36,563 nt of DNA from a virus. Each line of letters starts with the position of its first letter. Within the stretch, counting starts at the first letter, position 1. The notes under the pieces were generated by a model that made no database searches, had not been told where the DNA came from, and worked only from the letters and a program-made list of their open reading frames with translations. The stretch spans positions 1 through 36,563 of IMG/VR virus record IMGVR_UViG_3300048586_000929. One strand, written 5' to 3'. The translations under genes and the position numbers were made by a program. Shown piece by piece: positions 12,669-32,271 of the stretch.

Positions 12669-13598
12669 TCACTCGTTGCAGATGATGACGTGGACGCCGC
12701 GGTCCTGGACCCGCACCGCGTCGACGAAGGCCTGGACGCGGGCATAGGGCTGGTAGTCGGCGTGGGTGTCGTTCCACATCTCGCCCTGGATGTCCTGCCA
12801 GACGCCCATGACGATGTTCTTCTTCGACCAGATCGGGCAGTATCGATCGCCGTCCACCAAGGGCAGGCGGTTGGTGACGATCCACGTCATGCCGAGAAGC
12901 GTCGTGGGCTTGCCGCTTTGCAGCTGGAGCTGCTGGAACGCGTTGAGGCTTGCGCCGTCGCCATCTGCAATGGTCAGAAGGTCGGTCACCTGCTTCGGCG
13001 TGATCGCGCAGTAGAGCACGTCATCATCGTCGACGCCGAACTCGTCCTTGTTGAGCCGCTCCTTGGCCTCCATCAGCTTTGGAAGCGTCAGACCGGTGCC
13101 ACCGACCAGCGTGTAGCAAGCGGACGGCAGGGACGACGTTCCGGCGCCGGGGTTCTTGCCGACCACTGCCGCGCCAAGGATGCCGCCCGTGCTGATGCTG
13201 AAGGAGCCTTCGTCGCCTTCGATGATCCCCAGCGCGATGTCGTCGATCTCGCGGACGACGGCGGCGGTGTGGGCCTGGACATAGGTCGAGGTCGGGTCCA
13301 TCGCGCGCTGCAGCTTTTCGGCGGTCGAAATGTACTGGCCGGACTTGACCGGGTTCGGGAAGACGAGCCAGCGCCGCGAATTCTCGGGCACGTTCTCGAC
13401 GTTGCGCCGCTCGGTCGGGCTCACGCGGCTGGCGCGGACGCGGCCGACGAGGTCGGACGCGGCGACGGCCTCGCCCGATGCGGGCACGTCGGTGATGGCA
13501 GGGCGGATGCGCCCCCTCATTTGCTGCGCGACCATGAGGACATTGTCGCGATAGGTCTGGATGTGGTGCGCCTCGGCGCGTGCGTGCAGGGACGTCAT
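12669..13598 (-). CDS. Major capsid protein
   Basis: A protein of 309 aa matching the podophage capsid group I know as Phage_capsid_2. The helical start has YRDNVLMVAQQMRGRIRPAI; later come ENSRRWLVFPNPVKSGQYI, LMEAKERLNKDEFGVDDDD and a C-terminal segment with the pieces IVTNRLP and YCPIWSKKNIVMGVWQD. It should form the head with the scaffold encoded upstream. A strong AGGAGG precedes ATG 13598, as expected for a highly made protein. In contrast to the tightly packed neighbours, ~390 nt of non-coding DNA lie upstream, presumably holding its own leader or promoter next to the inserted regulatory cassette. Confidence 0.87.
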   Translation of the reverse strand: MTSLHARAEAHHIQTYRDNVLMVAQQMRGRIRPAITDVPASGEAVAASDLVGRVRASRVSPTERRNVENVPENSRRWLVFPNPVKSGQYISTAEKLQRAMDPTSTYVQAHTAAVVREIDDIALGIIEGDEGSFSISTGGILGAAVVGKNPGAGTSSLPSACYTLVGGTGLTLPKLMEAKERLNKDEFGVDDDDVLYCAITPKQVTDLLTIADGDGASLNAFQQLQLQSGKPTTLLGMTWIVTNRLPLVDGDRYCPIWSKKNIVMGVWQDIQGEMWNDTHADYQPYARVQAFVDAVRVQDRGVHVIICNE

Positions 13599-13991
13599 GA
13601 CCCCTCCTGTGAAAACTGACGATCGATTGTGAGTTTTCGAAGGGGCTGCCCGCGATGCGGACCCGATCTGACCTTAGCGGGGCCTATGCGCCAGAAGTAT
13701 GCCTGGATCAACCGGACCCGGCTTGCCGGGCTACCCAATATGTGGATGTCATCCGCATTTCCGGCACAAAGTCAAGTGGGCTGCAAACGCGAAACCAGAA
13801 CGGCGGGTGGGGGCCTGCTGTACACCCCCAATGTTGCTCCGGTTGCCCGTGCCACGGTTAGCAGGATATCACCGCGTCCCCCGCCGCTTGGTTCTTCAAG
13901 TGTGGCCACCGCGAGGTTCAGTCGCGGTGGCCGTAGGCTTCGTAGGCTACAGAAGGTTGTCAGTCAGGAAGCTCCAGATTAGGACCGGACC
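13599..13991. other. Non-coding spacer with hairpins between antirepressor cassette and capsid gene
   Basis: No convincing gene: the + strand reading frame at 13629-13982 lacks a ribosome site and has low-complexity Arg/Gly-rich translation. It contains a perfect 11-bp stem, GGCCACCGCGA (13904-13914) with TCGCGGTGGCC (13922-13932), loop 7 nt, and a smaller CCCGGC/GCCGGG stem at 13717-13730. Neither has a T run on either strand, so they are not classical terminators. It probably holds the 5' leader of the capsid mRNA and the end of the cassette transcript. No promoter could be named. Confidence 0.5.
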
Positions 13992-14222
13992 CTAATGCAG
14001 GCAAGCCTCTTTGGTCAGCCGCTCGGCATGCGCCACCGCATTGGCGCGGAACAGACGCTGTGCCTCGACCACGGCATAGACCGCGCCCTGCACATGCATC
14101 GGGGCGGTGGCCAGCGCCGTATCGAGCAACTCCATCAGCGCCGCGTCGCAACCTTCCATGTAGTGCAGCTGCTGCGCGATCTCCTCGCCCCGGTCAAAGA
14201 CCACTTGCGCAAAGTCAGGCAT
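13992..14222 (-). CDS. Small hypothetical protein downstream of the antirepressor
   Basis: A 76-aa acidic, helical protein with no recognised motif. ATG 14222 has GGAGG upstream and overlaps the end of the antirepressor gene by 8 nt, so it is co-translated with it. It could be a partner or modulator of the antirepressor, but nothing in its sequence shows this. It is the last gene of the leftward cassette transcript. Confidence 0.65.
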   Translation of the reverse strand: MPDFAQVVFDRGEEIAQQLHYMEGCDAALMELLDTALATAPMHVQGAVYAVVEAQRLFRANAVAHAERLTKEACLH

Positions 14223-15078
14223 GCGCAGCCTCCGCGATCAGAGCCTCGGGGATGACGACACCACGGCAGGCGACGCCGCCCAGCGTGAAGACAGCGTTGG
14301 ACGTGGCCGCGCCGGGCAGCGCCAGCAGGGCGTCACGGTGCCGCCCGTTGGCCCAGTCCGTGCCGACGAAAAGCGACACGATCCCCGGATGATTGCCGTT
14401 GGCGACAAACAGCCCGCCGGGCTTGACCCGCAACCCGACGGTGGCCAGCGTGGCATAGGCGCTTTCGCTGCCGCCGAACGCGGCGGCGATGTAGGTCGCC
14501 ACACTGTCATGCGCCATCAGATGCGCCAGACAGGCCCGGCCTTCCTCGGGGTCCACCGCCTGCGCGACCGGGGCCGCAAAAAGCGGAGGCAAGGGCGACC
14601 GCGCCCACATCCGCCGCCCGGCGGTGATGCCGCCAAGGATGCGCGCCTCACGGATCAGGTTCAGCCAGTCGCGCGGGTTCAGGCTGTCGTCGGCAGGCGG
14701 CTCTGGCGGTGGGCCGCTGCGGTCGGGCATCTGGTAGACGCCGCGCTTGCGCAGGGCGGGCAGGACCTCGGCCGTGATCCATTTGCGGAAGCGGCGTGCT
14801 TCGGGTTTCCGGCTGGTCAGGACGAGGGCATAGAGGCCGCTCTCGGAGATGGCGGTCAGTCTGTTGGATCGACCGACGGTATCATTAGTAATGATACCGT
14901 CTCGCTCGTCGTCGTCGAGGCGGGACACCGCCTGAGCCGTATTGCCGAGTTCGAGCACGCGGCATACGTCCGCCGCGATGAACCACGGATCTCCGTCGCG
15001 CATGACGACGCGCACGGCTTGTTCTTCAAAATCGAATGGAATGATGTCCACGGATGGGGTATCGTCATCGTTGTTCAT
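14215..15078 (-). CDS. BRO-N domain antirepressor (ant-like)
   Basis: 287 aa. Residues ~10-115 are a typical BRO-N/antirepressor DNA-binding domain: VVMRDGDPWFIAADVCRVLE, then GLYALVLTSRKPEARRFRKW and ITAEVLPALRKRGVYQMP. Proteins with this domain commonly bind and inactivate phage repressors or act on promoters. The C-terminal ~150 residues belong to no family I recognise; one stretch reads GTDWANGRHRDALLALPGAA. The start ATG 15078 overlaps the stop of the Arc-like gene as ATGA with GGAGG upstream, so synthesis is coupled to its repressor, the same arrangement as arc-ant in P22. The likely role is to relieve repression by the cI-like protein; this is inference. Confidence 0.82.
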   Translation of the reverse strand: MNNDDDTPSVDIIPFDFEEQAVRVVMRDGDPWFIAADVCRVLELGNTAQAVSRLDDDERDGIITNDTVGRSNRLTAISESGLYALVLTSRKPEARRFRKWITAEVLPALRKRGVYQMPDRSGPPPEPPADDSLNPRDWLNLIREARILGGITAGRRMWARSPLPPLFAAPVAQAVDPEEGRACLAHLMAHDSVATYIAAAFGGSESAYATLATVGLRVKPGGLFVANGNHPGIVSLFVGTDWANGRHRDALLALPGAATSNAVFTLGGVACRGVVIPEALIAEAAHA

Positions 15079-15278
15079 TCAGAGGCCTCCGGTTTCTGTA
15101 TGTTGCCTTCGGCAGCGGGGGCGGGACCGCCAAGTACGGCCTCCGCTGCCATCCTCTCCTGCAGGATGAGAACGATCAGGTTGTTCATAGACCGATGTTC
15201 TGCCTGCGCCTTAGATTTCACCCACGCTTGCAGCTCCTCAGTCATCCGAAGGCCAAAGGGGGCTCGTTGCTGTTTCAT
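15075..15278 (-). CDS. Arc-like ribbon-helix-helix repressor
   Basis: 67 aa. Its core APFGLRMTEELQAWVKSKAQ followed by AEHRSMNNLIVLILQER matches the Arc/Mnt fold: a beta strand with ...GLRM, then two helices with the RSxN turn. The C-terminal ~20 residues are a Pro/Ala/Glu tail. It is expected to bind the palindromic repeats just upstream and limit transcription of its own operon (arc-ant). The start ATG 15278 is preceded by GAGGAA. Its stop overlaps the antirepressor start. Confidence 0.82.
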   Translation of the reverse strand: MKQQRAPFGLRMTEELQAWVKSKAQAEHRSMNNLIVLILQERMAAEAVLGGPAPAAEGNIQKPEASE

Positions 15279-15289
15279 TGATTCCTCAC

Positions 15290-15323
15290 TTAGTTTCCAA
15301 TGGTCGTTAGCTTCCAGTGGAAG
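15290..15323. promoter_or_regulatory. Tandem operator repeats between the divergent Arc-like and Mnt-like genes
   Basis: Two direct 14-bp repeats, TTAGTTTCCAATGG (15290-15303) and TTAGCTTCCAGTGG (15307-15320), differ at two positions and have a 17-bp period. The second lies in a perfect palindrome, CTTCCA-G-TGGAAG (15311-15323); the first keeps the inner CCA-A-TGG. This fits cooperative binding of ribbon-helix-helix dimers. A perfect -35 TTGACA for the - strand lies at 15332-15337, so a bound dimer would sit between -35 and the start of arc. The matching -10 is weak. Confidence 0.65.
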
Positions 15324-15366
15324 GTATTCCCTGTCAAGCGGTTTCTAGCTACCCTTGGCAACTATC

Positions 15367-15651
15367 ATGGCAGACCCAAGTAAGTACCCTACTCGCATCC
15401 CCCCGTATGGCCTTAGGATGCCTCCTGAGTTGAAAGATCGCATTCAGGCCGCTGCTGATGCCAACAATCGCTCATTGAACGCTGAGATTGTTGCCGCGCT
15501 GGAGAGAGCTTATCCGCGAGCAGACCCCGTCCTAGAGATGATCGAGAAGGTGACGGCAGGGATGACGATGGAGGAAAAGGCTCAGTTGCACCGGCAGGCA
15601 GAGGTCTTCAGGCGAATGGTCAATCAGATCCATGACCGAAAAGCGGGCTGA
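15367..15651 (+). CDS. Mnt-like ribbon-helix-helix repressor
   Basis: A 94-aa Arc/Mnt-family protein: PPYGLRMPPELKDRIQAAAD followed by ANNRSLNAEIVAALERAY gives the strand and two helices. The extra C-terminal helix (residues ~55-90, PVLEMIEKVTAGMTMEEKAQ and on) resembles the longer C-terminal part of P22 Mnt, which makes tetramers. Transcribed divergently from the Arc-like gene, it probably represses that operon during lysogeny. I start it at ATG 15367; a TTG at 15355 is also in frame. No strong ribosome site is seen before either, and a leaderless or weakly translated message is possible. Confidence 0.78.
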   Translation: MADPSKYPTRIPPYGLRMPPELKDRIQAAADANNRSLNAEIVAALERAYPRADPVLEMIEKVTAGMTMEEKAQLHRQAEVFRRMVNQIHDRKAG

Positions 15652-15654
15652 AAG

Positions 15655-15984
15655 ATGGCAGAACTGCTGGGCGTAATGTTTGCGCTGGCCACCAGCGAGG
15701 TGGGTCTTGTCGGTTTTGTCGCTGTCCTGCTGTTACTGACCCAACCACTTCGACGTTTTTGGATTGGCGTCGTCGGCACTGCGGTAGTCGCGGGCATGGT
15801 CACGACGGCCACAGCTAACGCCGATTTCGTGGACAACGAGGCACTGTTCTTTTTCACGGCCAGTTGTATGTACCTGATCCTATTCGGTGTGTTTGGCGCG
15901 TTGGCGATAGGCGCTAAGCGGGTGGTTCAAGCACCATCTGAGCCTAAGTCTGGGCTGGGCGGGGGCGGGCAGCAAGACGATTAG
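15655..15984 (+). CDS. Small three-helix membrane protein, possible superinfection exclusion
   Basis: A 109-aa protein with hydrophobic helices near residues 5-30, 36-54 and 64-88, and a Gly/Gln/Asp tail. It begins 3 nt after the Mnt-like stop and is certainly in the same transcript, so it should be made by a lysogen. In P22 the corresponding region carries sieA, a membrane protein that blocks superinfecting DNA; I see no sequence similarity, only shared context and topology. Its stop overlaps the stop of the convergent gene on the - strand. Base composition is less GC-rich than in the head genes. Confidence 0.65.
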   Translation: MAELLGVMFALATSEVGLVGFVAVLLLLTQPLRRFWIGVVGTAVVAGMVTTATANADFVDNEALFFFTASCMYLILFGVFGALAIGAKRVVQAPSEPKSGLGGGGQQDD

Positions 15985-16187
15985 CTCCGACCAAACACCC
16001 TCGCCAGCCAGCGCCACGGCCCGAATGGAAGTGCGACCGTTGCCACCACCTCCCCGTCCAGCACTGCGGTGGCCATCTGGCGGAGACGCAACTGCGCTTC
16101 CGCTTCTGACGCCGCTGGGATCGTGAAGGAATAGCGATCCCCATGGAAGTGGTAGCTGAACAGCCACTTACGGACTTCCTTGGCCAT
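15981..16187 (-). CDS. Small hypothetical protein next to the scaffold gene
   Basis: 68 aa, basic and aromatic (KEVRKWLFSYHFHGDRYSFT), with no transmembrane segment clear enough to call. It starts at ATG 16187, 5 nt after the scaffold stop, with a G-run as a weak ribosome site. It belongs to the head operon rather than to the + strand cassette, with which it converges. The N-terminal strands and Ala/Glu-rich helix suggest a small alpha/beta domain. No function recognised. Confidence 0.6.
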   Translation of the reverse strand: MAKEVRKWLFSYHFHGDRYSFTIPAASEAEAQLRLRQMATAVLDGEVVATVALPFGPWRWLARVFGRS

Positions 16188-16192
16188 GGCGC

Positions 16193-17146
16193 TTACCCCC
16201 CCGCCGCGATCTTCGTCAGCCGATCGATCTCCGGCTGCAGGCGCGCCATCTCGGCCCGGTTGCCCGCCGCGTAGGCCTTGCCATAGGCCCCCTCGGGCGA
16301 GCGCATCTCGGAGATCTTGGCCTTCGCATCGGCCGGCGTCATGCCAAGCGCGCCGTCGCCCTTGCCGATGCCGATGCCGGTGTCGCTGGCCATCATGTCG
16401 CCGATGAGGTCGAAGAGGCGCAACACGCCGGCGTCGCCCGTCTTAGGCGCGAGGGACTGCACCAGGGACAGGATCCCGTTCTGGTCGAGGCCGAGCTTTT
16501 CACCCACGACGCTGGCCGCCTGCTGTGCCCGGGCGATCTTGGCGTCGATCTGGCCACCCCAGTCCTTCTCGAGCTCTGCCATCATAGCCGTCCGGGCGCT
16601 GTCGAGGTCGGCCTGCGCGCTTTCCATGAGGCGGCCGACGGCACCGGCATAGACGTCGGTCAGGCGCTGCAGGGCCCGCGGGGGCAGGCCTTCCTCGTGC
16701 GCGACCTTGCGGGCGTGGGCCTCGAGCGCCTCGTCCCACTTCGCGTCCTTGGGCCAGCCATCGGGCCGCTTGACATCGTACTTTTCTGGGGCCTCGGGGA
16801 TCCCGAAGAGCGCGGCGTTCTCGCGCATCCATGCGGCGACGTCCTGATCCTTTTTCGGCCGCTCGATCAGGTTGTCGGCGGGTTTGCCGAGTTTCTTTTC
16901 GGCATTGGCGTGCATCTCGACGGCGCGTGAGATCGCCTCGAGCGGATCGTCGATCGCCAGCCCGCGGGCCGTGATCGCGGAGCGCATCGGCTCGTCAAAG
17001 CGCTTGTCTTCGTACCATTTGGGCGCGGGCCGATCGCCGGCGCCGGCGGCGGGATCGCCCCCTTCGCCGGTAGCGGCGGCACCTGCACCGTCGTCGGGGC
17101 GGAACAAGCGGCGGTCGGCGAGCATGCGGGCAAGGAAATCAGTCAT
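16193..17146 (-). CDS. Head scaffolding protein
   Basis: 317 aa, rich in Ala, Asp, Glu and Lys, without hydrophobic core segments, largely predicted helical and low in Cys. A flexible Gly/Ala/Pro N-terminus precedes the segment PAPKWYEDKRFDEPMRSAI. Its position between portal and capsid genes, its length and its composition are those of podophage scaffolds, which assemble the procapsid and leave it before packaging. The start ATG overlaps the upstream stop by 8 nt. In this phage the capsid gene follows only after the regulatory cassette. Confidence 0.78.
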   Translation of the reverse strand: MTDFLARMLADRRLFRPDDGAGAAATGEGGDPAAGAGDRPAPKWYEDKRFDEPMRSAITARGLAIDDPLEAISRAVEMHANAEKKLGKPADNLIERPKKDQDVAAWMRENAALFGIPEAPEKYDVKRPDGWPKDAKWDEALEAHARKVAHEEGLPPRALQRLTDVYAGAVGRLMESAQADLDSARTAMMAELEKDWGGQIDAKIARAQQAASVVGEKLGLDQNGILSLVQSLAPKTGDAGVLRLFDLIGDMMASDTGIGIGKGDGALGMTPADAKAKISEMRSPEGAYGKAYAAGNRAEMARLQPEIDRLTKIAAGG

Positions 17147-24057: not shown

Positions 24058-25995
24058 TCAGGCGAAGTCCTCTTCGGAGTATACGGGACGCTGGAGATCT
24101 GATGGCGCTACAGGTCGATCGGTCTGGAAGTCCGAAAGCCCCGCGATCGAGGGGAGCGGGACATAGAAGCCCCGCGTCTGGATGCCGGCGAGACGCAAGG
24201 GCCCAGCGGGCTCCGCCTCGTTCAACCGTCGCGCCGCCTGCGCCCAGACACCATCGGCCCAGGGCGTGCCCTCGAAGAGCGCACAGAGCCCGGGGATGGC
24301 CTTGTTGGGAAGGAACAGCGCCGCATCCTTGCCGAGGCCACGCACGCGCAGCCCGATCTTGGCGAGCTTCTCGTTCGCGGCCGCTGCCGCGTCCTGCTGG
24401 TCGACTTCGCTTTGCGTGGGGTTGTACAGGTCCCGCGGCGCGCCCTTCATCCGGGCGGCCGCCATGACCCACTGCGCGATCGTGTACTGTTCGCCGCGCC
24501 GGTAGACGTCATAGGACTTGCCCATGAGCGTCATGACCATGTCCTCGGCGTTGGAGCCGATCTCCTGGCTTTCCTCGGTGATCGACCGGCCGAGCTTCTT
24601 GGCCCAGTTGTCCATCGTCTCGGCCGAGGGCAGGTCGGCATGCAACGCCATGTCTGCCAGCGCCAGGACGGTTCCATAGTTGTCGGCACCGCGCCCTGTC
24701 TGCCCGTGGATCGCCAGCGCCCCGCGCCAGAGCTCGAGCCGCTCGGGCCACGTCGCCCAGCCCTCGAGGATCCTGCGGCGCAGCTGCTGGCCAATGGCGC
24801 GCAATCGTCGCGGATCGTTCTTCAGCTTGGGGAGGTCGGGAGGCAGGCGGTTGAGGTCGAGGATGATCATCCGGCTGCGGTCCTGCGCCGGCATGGGCGG
24901 GATCAGGATCGAGGAGAACAGGAAGCACGAATAGGCGTTCGACTGGTGACCGGTCTGGTCCGATGATCCGCGGAAGATCTGCGCGCCTGACGCCGCGCGC
25001 CTGGCGAGCTCCACCACGGCCTTGACCTTCTGGGGGCGGTCGACGTCTGGCTCGAGCTCGTCGATCGCCACGGGCAGCGAGGAGAAGCCCACGACAGAGC
25101 GGATCCCGGCCTCGGTTGCATCGGCGGCCTGCAGGAGGCCCGCCTCGCCGCCGTGGACGTGGAGGAGAAGGCTCTGGAATGTGCTCTTGCCGGTGGCCGC
25201 GTCGCCCGTCAGCCAGCCCACCGGGCGCCAGTCCAGCGCCCCGCCCAGCATCTGCGCGCACATCAGGCCCACCGCCAGGACGGGATCGATGTCGGGCCTT
25301 CGCCATGACCAGGTCTCGACCAGGCGCAACAGCTCCGCGCCAGAGTCGCCGCGCGTCTCGGCCTTGGCCGGGCGGGGGACGGGGTCGGCTGCGGCATAGA
25401 CCTTGCCGCCATAGACCCCGGGCGGCCGCCAGTCGTTGCCGATGAGGACACCGTCGCCGCTGTGGATGATCAGGCCACCGTCGTCGTCGACCCAGCATCC
25501 GGGCCCGCGCACGCGGCCTGTCGGTTTCCAGACGCCGCGCTCGGCCGAGGCCGCGACCATCGCCGCGGCGGCTGACGCCTGGTCGAACTTGCCGGGGCGG
25601 GGACAGCCGTCCTTGTCGTATTGCGGGAAGTGCATCGACAGGAGGCGGATGTCGCCCAGGAAGACATGCCGGATCTTGTCGAGGCTGTGGTTGTCGATCG
25701 CGCGCAGCTCGCCCAGGCGGTTGAGATAGAAGCACACGTCGCCGTGCACGCCCAGGGGCACCACGGGGCAACCGTCGAAGATCTCGCCGCGCGGACGGCC
25801 GCGCGGATCGCCGCCACGGCCGCCGTCGTCGGGCGAGGGGCCGGGGTCGCCATCGTCGCGAGGATCCGCGCCGGCGTCGTCCGGATCGGGCGCCAGCGGG
25901 GCATTGGCCAGCTCGTCGCGCAGGCGCACCACGTTGACCGGCGTGTCGCGCAGCCAGCTGTCGACGGGCTCGTCGGGGAGGCCGTCGATACTCAT
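24058..25995 (-). CDS. P-loop replication ATPase/helicase
   Basis: 645 aa. Residues 1-70 are Asp/Pro/Gly-rich and disordered. Residues ~70-200 form an N-terminal domain (LNRLGELRAIDNHSLDKIRH). The ATPase domain has Walker A GDAATGKS at 264-271, Walker B VAIDELE at 309-315 and a likely arginine finger in QDRSRMIILDLN near 371-382. This order resembles DUF927/SF3-type helicase modules of phage and plasmid replication proteins. A role in origin melting or fork unwinding with the Toprim primase encoded upstream is inferred. ATG 25995 overlaps the previous stop as ATGA with GAGG upstream. Confidence 0.75.
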   Translation of the reverse strand: MSIDGLPDEPVDSWLRDTPVNVVRLRDELANAPLAPDPDDAGADPRDDGDPGPSPDDGGRGGDPRGRPRGEIFDGCPVVPLGVHGDVCFYLNRLGELRAIDNHSLDKIRHVFLGDIRLLSMHFPQYDKDGCPRPGKFDQASAAAAMVAASAERGVWKPTGRVRGPGCWVDDDGGLIIHSGDGVLIGNDWRPPGVYGGKVYAAADPVPRPAKAETRGDSGAELLRLVETWSWRRPDIDPVLAVGLMCAQMLGGALDWRPVGWLTGDAATGKSTFQSLLLHVHGGEAGLLQAADATEAGIRSVVGFSSLPVAIDELEPDVDRPQKVKAVVELARRAASGAQIFRGSSDQTGHQSNAYSCFLFSSILIPPMPAQDRSRMIILDLNRLPPDLPKLKNDPRRLRAIGQQLRRRILEGWATWPERLELWRGALAIHGQTGRGADNYGTVLALADMALHADLPSAETMDNWAKKLGRSITEESQEIGSNAEDMVMTLMGKSYDVYRRGEQYTIAQWVMAAARMKGAPRDLYNPTQSEVDQQDAAAAANEKLAKIGLRVRGLGKDAALFLPNKAIPGLCALFEGTPWADGVWAQAARRLNEAEPAGPLRLAGIQTRGFYVPLPSIAGLSDFQTDRPVAPSDLQRPVYSEEDFA

Positions 25996-26174
25996 GCCGC
26001 CTCGCCGGGGATGCAGTCGATTGCGACCATAAGCGCGAGCCCTTGACCGATCAGGTCCTTGGCCATGGCCTCGCCCGCGAACATGCAGGCCTCGAGGCTG
26101 ACCATCTCGCCGACGGGTGCGCGCACGGTTTGGCCGGGCGGAAGGGTGAGGGTGAGGACGAGGAGCCAGGTCAT
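25992..26174 (-). CDS. Small protein with hydrophobic N-terminus
   Basis: 60 aa: MTWLLVLTLTLPPGQTV looks like a signal sequence or membrane anchor, followed by VSLEACMFAGEAMAKDLIGQ and VAIDCIPGEAA with two cysteines (residues ~30 and 55). It starts at ATG 26174 with GAGGTGG upstream; GTGs at 26180 and 26183 are also in frame. It is the first gene of the replication-packaging transcript and lies divergent from the + strand cassette. A small exported or envelope protein is likely; function unknown. Confidence 0.6.
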   Translation of the reverse strand: MTWLLVLTLTLPPGQTVRAPVGEMVSLEACMFAGEAMAKDLIGQGLALMVAIDCIPGEAA

Positions 26175-26207
26175 CAGCACCACCTCGCGTTCTGTTGAAA
26201 AAGGGGA

Positions 26208-26236
26208 TTGACAATAGCGCCAATGGCGCTATTTTG
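26208..26236 (+). promoter_or_regulatory. Promoter with a 21-bp perfect palindrome as operator
   Basis: A consensus -35 TTGACA at 26208-26213 is followed after 16 bp by TATTTT (-10 like). The spacer is filled by the palindrome AATAGCGCCA-A-TGGCGCTATT (26213-26233), two 10-bp arms around one base. A dimeric repressor bound here would cover both promoter elements. The HTH protein encoded last in the operon (27143-27352) is the natural candidate. The region also lies between two divergent transcripts and could affect the leftward replication genes. Confidence 0.75.
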
Positions 26237-31638: not shown

Positions 31639-31662
31639 GTCATGACTGCTTACTTCTCGCGC

Positions 31663-32271
31663 ATGGATGAGAAGTGGTTCAGAGACCGCAAGCGCCAGCT
31701 CGGCGTGACGGACATCGACATCGCCCAGCGGATGGGCCGGAGCCGCTCGGCAATCCCCAAGATCGCATCCGGTCAGCAGAAGATGAGCATCGAATGGGCG
31801 CAGGCCTTTGCAGATGTACTGCAAGTGCCGGTGTCAGAGATCCTGCAACGGGCCGGAGTGATAACGGCTTCCGTCGCCAAGACCGTGATCCCCGGCATGT
31901 CGGAAGGCGACGCAGCGCCGTGGATCCCCGCGCCGGACACTCGCGAGGTTCCATCGATAGCGGAGGCATTTGGCGCGCGCCCAGGCGTTGATGTGTGGCA
32001 GATCAAGACTGCCGCGATGGCGTTAGCCGGCTATTTACCAGGCGACTACATGATGGTGGACACGCATCAGGCCGAGCGGGTGAAAGCTGGCGACGTGGTT
32101 GTTGCGCAGGTTTACACTCGGCAAGGAACGGCGAAGTCGGTACTTAGGAGGTGGATGCCGCCTGTCCTCGTCCCTGCGGCGGCACCCACAGAGCAAGAGC
32201 CAGTGTACCTTGTTGACGGTGAGAACGTGCTGATAAGGGGAAAGGTCATTGCATGCTGGCGCACAAGCTAA
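31663..32271 (+). CDS. cI-like repressor with degenerate S24/LexA-type C-terminal domain
   Basis: 202 aa. N-terminal HTH: DEKWFRDRKRQLGVTDIDIA, then RMGRSRSAIPKIASGQQKMS. C-terminal domain: VWQIKTAAMALAGYLPGDYM, then VKAGDVVVAQV and YLVDGENVLIRGKVIACW, the LexA/CI fold. Against E. coli LexA (KGMSMKDIGIMDGD... EVTVKRL) the catalytic Ser position is Ala118 and the Lys position seems to be Leu161, so self-cleavage looks lost. I use ATG 31663, where the domain begins; ATG 31642 in the same frame adds seven residues. Neither has a clear ribosome site, and a leaderless message is possible. It is expected to maintain lysogeny. Confidence 0.82.
   Translation: MDEKWFRDRKRQLGVTDIDIAQRMGRSRSAIPKIASGQQKMSIEWAQAFADVLQVPVSEILQRAGVITASVAKTVIPGMSEGDAAPWIPAPDTREVPSIAEAFGARPGVDVWQIKTAAMALAGYLPGDYMMVDTHQAERVKAGDVVVAQVYTRQGTAKSVLRRWMPPVLVPAAAPTEQEPVYLVDGENVLIRGKVIACWRTS

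Follow-up and report, generated by a model that had tools for sequence, protein, structure and literature searches.

A cassette of five genes lies between a putative scaffold gene and the major capsid gene of a temperate podovirus (Table 1). On the minus strand, an Arc-like repressor gene is followed by a Bro-N antirepressor gene, whose start overlaps it by four bases (ATGA, 15075-15078), and by a gene for a protein of 76 amino acids. A Mnt-like repressor gene and a gene for a small membrane protein are divergent from these, on the plus strand. The window, by which we mean the whole stretch of DNA analysed, is IMG/VR record IMGVR_UViG_3300048586_000929 in its complete extent (positions 1-36,563). 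This 36.6-kb phage encodes an integrase, a capsid protein of the HTVC010P kind (24-31% identity to capsids of Pelagibacter and other marine phages), a head-tail connector, and T7-type tail-tube and internal virion proteins. Its head operon is on the minus strand. The scaffold gene is named from its position between portal and capsid, as phrog_3742 carries no function. An earlier, sequence-only reading of this DNA had proposed both the overlapping Arc-like and BRO-N genes and the divergent Mnt-like and membrane genes, and had placed them between scaffold and capsid; profile searches, hydropathy and the flanking genes bear this out.

Table 1. Positions of the cassette, its flanking genes and related features in the window
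Feature	Position	Strand	Basis or remark
Major capsid protein (flank)	12669-13598	-	PF19821 1.5e-27, phrog_3437
Conserved structured capsid leader	13629-13740	-	Covariance model matches in all 14 records tested
11-bp hairpin after cassette	13904-13932	-	L003 also has a hairpin after the small head-operon gene
Inserted cassette, ~2.0 kb	13967-15984		Missing from sister phage L003
76-aa gene, downstream of and overlapping antirepressor	13992-14222	-	phmmer
Bro-N antirepressor	14215-15078	-	PF02498 E=3.9e-22; PHROG anti-repressor Ant families down to 3.7e-44
Shared C-terminus, antirepressor	14218-14460	-	
Arc-like ribbon-helix-helix repressor	15075-15278	-	PF03869 29.7 bits (cut-off 20.4)
Shared regulatory region of divergent repressor genes	15279-15366		Intergenic, 88 nt, operator-like repeats
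Two tandem operator-like boxes CCAYTGGAARCTAA, 17 nt apart	15290-15320	-	2/300 shuffles as good
Candidate -35 TTGACA of putative arc-ant promoter	15332-15337	-	Inferred from sequence and position
Mnt-like ribbon-helix-helix repressor, divergent	15367-15651	+	PF03869 36.6 bits (cut-off 20.4)
Small membrane protein, three hydrophobic segments	15655-15984	+	Hydropathy; relative position of P22 sieA
Small head-operon gene adjoining insertion	15981-16187	-	phrog_2920
Putative scaffold gene (flank)	16193-17146	-	phrog_3742 and position between portal and capsid
Helicase/primase-like protein	24058-26223	-	C-terminus homologous to antirepressor C-terminus
Shared C-terminus, helicase/primase-like protein	24142-24381	-	
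cI-like repressor	31642-32271	+	S24-like C-terminus without catalytic Ser and Lys; presumed antirepressor target

Insertion in the head operon

Phage L003, a close relative of the window (capsid 88% and scaffold 78% identical), has the order scaffold, small gene, hairpin, promoter-like sequence, leader and capsid, and carries no cassette. A DNA alignment of the two phages loses homology where the small gene 15981-16187 ends and regains it at ~13967. Since L003 does not have it, the cassette is a clean 2.0-kb insertion between putative scaffold and capsid. The small gene is part of the head operon and not of the cassette, and its C-terminus is shorter than that of its L003 counterpart. All five cassette reading frames are intact and overlap in the fashion of an operon.

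Two closely similar phages, L019 and L020, differ in the small genes that fill their scaffold-capsid gap (2.4 and 3.8 kb), which makes this slot an insertion hot spot; a recombinase-like gene lies within the L019 gap. PADLOC returned no match for the four cassette proteins tested, and we therefore rejected a reading of the cassette as a toxin-antitoxin or defence unit. The membrane protein corresponds to no known family in profile searches, has no homologue in IMG/VR or phage records, and shows no detectable similarity to P22 SieA. Its putative role is assigned by position only.

Capsid expression

According to the sequence-only reading, the cassette splits scaffold from capsid. This is correct as to position, but the capsid gene need not lose expression, as it keeps its own conserved TTGAC-type promoter-like sequence and a conserved structured leader downstream of the insertion. 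The leader, of ~115 nucleotides, is found in the window, L003-L007, L010, L019-L022, L024, G006 and G012, and is single-copy in nearly every record. Double changes occur in 10 of its 20 predicted pairs. The model also matches records outside its training set (G006, G012 and L012), and the leader has no match in Rfam. A GGGYRN-type box occurs in it twice, with copies that agree within each phage and differ between phages. In L012 (7092-7204) this leader directly follows the antirepressor and its 76-amino-acid partner, and the gene after it is tail-fibre-like rather than a capsid gene.

The two repressors and their shared regulatory region

Both small proteins score above the PF03869 cut-off, in keeping with the proposal that each is a ribbon-helix-helix protein, and the best solved relatives of the Mnt-like protein are Arc and Mnt (including 1mnt; E ~5e-5). 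PDB matches of the Arc-like protein to RecA fusion chains, returned by phmmer, were discarded as an artefact of repeated weak hits in long chains. The start of the Mnt-like gene is best read as the ATG at 15367 rather than an upstream TTG. The predicted contact strand is P-x-G-x-R in both window proteins, compared with Q-x-N-x-R in P22 Arc and H-x-N-x-R in P22 Mnt. As the two strands are the same, known Arc and Mnt structures suggest that both proteins may read one site.

Operator repeats had also been proposed between the two repressor genes. A 14-nucleotide tandem repeat with a palindrome is indeed present, but as two boxes rather than many. The two copies are identical at 12 of 14 positions, and the left CCAYTGGAARCTAA copy sits inside a 6-1-6 palindrome, CTTCCACTGGAAG. 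A sister pair of repressor genes in L107, which occurs there without an antirepressor, has a repeat of the same 17-nucleotide period (1/300 shuffles). The L107 Arc-like protein is 73% identical to that of the window over 40 residues, and common descent can account for part of the similarity of the repeats. The predicted arc-ant promoter has a poor -10 element and was not listed by a generic promoter scan.

The antirepressor and its presumed target

Family assignment places the antirepressor with Bro-N proteins. Comparison of P22_AR_N/C with Bro-N detects no relationship to P22 Ant (hhalign probability 0.05%), and the claim that the antirepressor is of a type unrelated to P22 Ant thus holds. 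Homology (hhalign E 2e-16) links its last ~90 residues with the C-terminal part of the phage's own helicase/primase-like protein, leaving room for a second role of the antirepressor. In L011 and L014, the antirepressor gene adjoins a helicase/primase gene. In an AlphaFold model, the C-terminus is predicted confidently and the Bro-N part only at low confidence (mean pLDDT 66); fold searches with it gave no significant PDB match and, in a viral library, mainly Bro-N proteins. Neither the model nor these searches are used as evidence here.

Among 14 records searched, 12 (the window being one of them) encode the cI-like repressor or an orthologue of it. Its C-terminus resembles that of LexA/S24 proteins. 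With residues assigned by motif (AMALAGYLPGD versus SM...GD of LexA), the position of the catalytic Ser is Ala in 12 of 13 aligned sequences, including that of the window, and there is no conserved Lys. A repressor without the S24 Ser/Lys dyad fits induction by antirepression. In Gifsy phages, such repressors have been tied to antirepressor-driven induction (PMC3121763), and the antirepressors are also encoded away from the immunity region. However, Gifsy antirepressors are under LexA control (PMC3121763), whereas a LexA-type box of the GTTC-N7-GTTC form is missing at the arc-ant promoter.

Related antirepressors are associated with C4 RNAs

Scans of IMG/VR and of species genomes yielded 14 loci with a full-length relative of the antirepressor (48-58% identity). 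Most of these also have the 76-amino-acid gene, relatives of which lie directly downstream of a Bro-N gene in at least 12 loci (phmmer). Among 395 genomes of the Oceaniglobus family surveyed, five close antirepressors were found. The antirepressor and 76-amino-acid gene occupy the same scaffold-capsid slot in L005 as in the window, lie between portal and scaffold in L006, L007, L010 and the Oceaniglobus prophage L024, and are elsewhere in other loci. A PF03869 gene is present only in the window among the 17 records tested.

An alignment of upstream regions revealed a strong promoter-like sequence and a structured leader before the relatives' antirepressor genes. Matches to the C4 antisense RNA (RF01695) above the gathering score are located just upstream in 13 of the 14 closest loci (L004-L012, L014 and L024-L026, but not L013); L004 and L005 look like one phage in two samples. 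In the window, there is no RF01695 match even at an E-value of 5, and none with our own C4 model. Across a larger set, our model places a C4 RNA just upstream in 28 of 97 Bro-N loci, with rough E-values.

A segment of 7-9 nucleotides in the C4 loop is exactly complementary to the phage's own Shine-Dalgarno region in 11 of 12 distinct C4 loci; the twelfth, L005, allows a reading of ten pairs, one of them G-U. Between phages, complementarity averages 4.7 nucleotides, and none of 5000 permutations reached the observed sum. The complementary loop and ribosome-site sequences vary from phage to phage, and such self-matching is what a working C4 switch would be expected to show. L006 and L007 have nearly identical antirepressors, yet different, self-matched loop and ribosome-site sequences, reminiscent of the heteroimmune pair P1 and P7. 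Small membrane or lipoprotein-like genes are divergent to the C4-antirepressor unit, upstream of C4, in L007, L008, L010 and L011. They occupy the position of the window's membrane gene, and its protein gave no significant score against theirs.

In a tree of antirepressors, the window is sister to the C4-controlled L004 (98/97) and lies inside the C4-controlled set, although most inner branches are weak (1 of 17 starred). Most likely, the 5' end of this antirepressor operon exchanged a C4 switch for an Arc/Mnt two-repressor switch. That the exchange ran from C4 to Arc/Mnt is likely, not proven, and is argued from the nesting of the window among C4-controlled antirepressors and from C4 being the majority state. 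In the open-licence papers searched, which is not proof of priority, we found no description of such an exchange before orthologous antirepressors.

Comparison with known immunity regions

The sequence-only reading described P22 immI as having mnt, arc, ant and sieA in the late region, with Arc and Mnt controlling the antirepressor. In the P22 genome (NC_002371), sieA and mnt indeed share one strand and arc and ant the opposite one, flanked by late genes 16 and 9. Like P22 immI (sieA, mnt / arc, sar, ant), the cassette has divergent Mnt-like and Arc-like ribbon-helix-helix repressors, an antirepressor gene downstream of arc, a membrane gene on the mnt strand, and a late-operon location in which arc and ant are co-directional with the late genes. 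It differs in having a Bro-N rather than a P22_AR antirepressor, in occupying a scaffold-capsid slot rather than that between genes 16 and 9, in the overlap of arc with the antirepressor start, and in a membrane gene unrelated to sieA by sequence. No sar-like RNA was identified in the window. The sister phages resemble instead the immI regions of P1 and P7, where a C4 antisense RNA precedes ant: their C4 RNAs stand before an orthologous antirepressor and match its own ribosome-binding site, whereas the window is without C4 and has repressor proteins in its place.

In P22-like phages, the late operon harbours an 'ant moron' that varies greatly (PMC2629481; PMC8022706), and Villafane et al. noted members with an antirepressor but without arc, for which some other control was inferred (PMC2629481). 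Arc/Mnt pairs with other antirepressor types recur inside late operons and have been described as the 'ant moron' (PMC2629481). The arrangement is not novel as such, and the cassette is a variant of this kind rather than a kind of its own. Edwardsiella phage Edno5, Erwinia phage Midgardsormr38, Acinetobacter phage TCUAN1 and Paracoccus phage Pyei1 likewise have a Mnt-like gene divergent from an Arc-like gene and an antirepressor gene in late or tail operons, with an unnamed small gene in the Arc-like position in TCUAN1. In these phages, by contrast, the antirepressors are annotated as Ant-like, KilAC/Rha or unspecified, and none of the slots is scaffold-capsid.

Beside Bro-N genes, Arc/Mnt pairs occur in the window, in L033 (Polaromonas) and in L105/L106, of which the window alone combines them with this antirepressor subfamily. 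The L105/L106 locus is between internal-protein-like and tailspike-like genes, as in P22, these two names being our reading of the sequences and not a profile result. The same gene order was therefore found in P22-like, tail-operon and Polaromonas prophage loci, but it is not an obligate unit, as sister phages have the antirepressor and the gene downstream of it under a C4 RNA, with no Arc/Mnt pair.

Possible functions of the cassette

The cassette probably serves as a secondary lysis-lysogeny control locus, an 'ant moron' like P22 immI, where a pair of repressors has come to control a Bro-N antirepressor operon in place of an antisense RNA. DNA binding, repression, antirepression of cI and superinfection exclusion are activities that we infer. 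In a lysogen, the Mnt-like protein, perhaps together with the Arc-like protein, would keep the antirepressor off by binding both tandem boxes that overlie the arc-ant promoter, and superinfecting phages may be kept out by the co-expressed membrane protein. When a repressor-free cell is infected, the arc-ant promoter would fire, and the Arc-like protein, encoded on the same transcript just ahead of the antirepressor, would then limit the burst. If repression fails, the antirepressor would inactivate the cI-like repressor, which is probably not inducible by RecA-stimulated cleavage since the residues for self-cleavage have been lost.

The homology of the antirepressor's C-terminus to ORF 24058-26223 and its relatives, and the helicase/primase neighbours in L011 and L014, would also suit a replication or late-phase DNA-binding regulator that is not a cI antirepressor. 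We consider this unlikely, because the protein is assigned to the Bro-N/Ant family with antirepressor PHROGs, its relatives are under a C4 RNA, known from antirepressor genes, and the same genomes encode a non-cleavable cI-like repressor. Rather improbable is a scheme in which the antirepressor would couple induction to replication, acting on the repressor side through its Bro-N part and on the origin or replication machinery through its C-terminus, such that the exchange of C4 for Arc/Mnt would alter immunity specificity and leave the payload unchanged.

The pair without an antirepressor in L107 indicates that Arc/Mnt genes move on their own, and the antirepressor is co-directional with the head operon. 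The repressor pair and membrane gene could therefore be a separate lysogenic-conversion or addiction unit that landed beside the antirepressor, which would be controlled by late-operon read-through. The four-base overlap of the Arc-like and antirepressor genes, behind one promoter region with tandem boxes, and the recurrence of closely coupled Arc-like and Bro-N genes in L033 and L105 lead us to give this little credence. Degraded ant morons are frequent in P22-like phages (PMC2629481), and L003 has a longer version of the adjoining gene 15981-16187, as might be expected of a decaying moron without function; such decay is very improbable given five intact frames, operon-fashion overlaps, and boxes preserved at the same period as in L107.

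The preferred reading, a two-repressor switch in the place of an antisense-RNA switch, has consequences for this group of phages. The lack of a cleavage dyad in its cI-like repressors suggests that their main route of induction is antirepression, not self-cleavage. The antirepressor payload and its switch are separable modules: one orthologous antirepressor follows a C4 RNA in sister phages but a pair of repressor genes in the window, so that the replacement of RNA control by protein control is directly testable in one genetic background.
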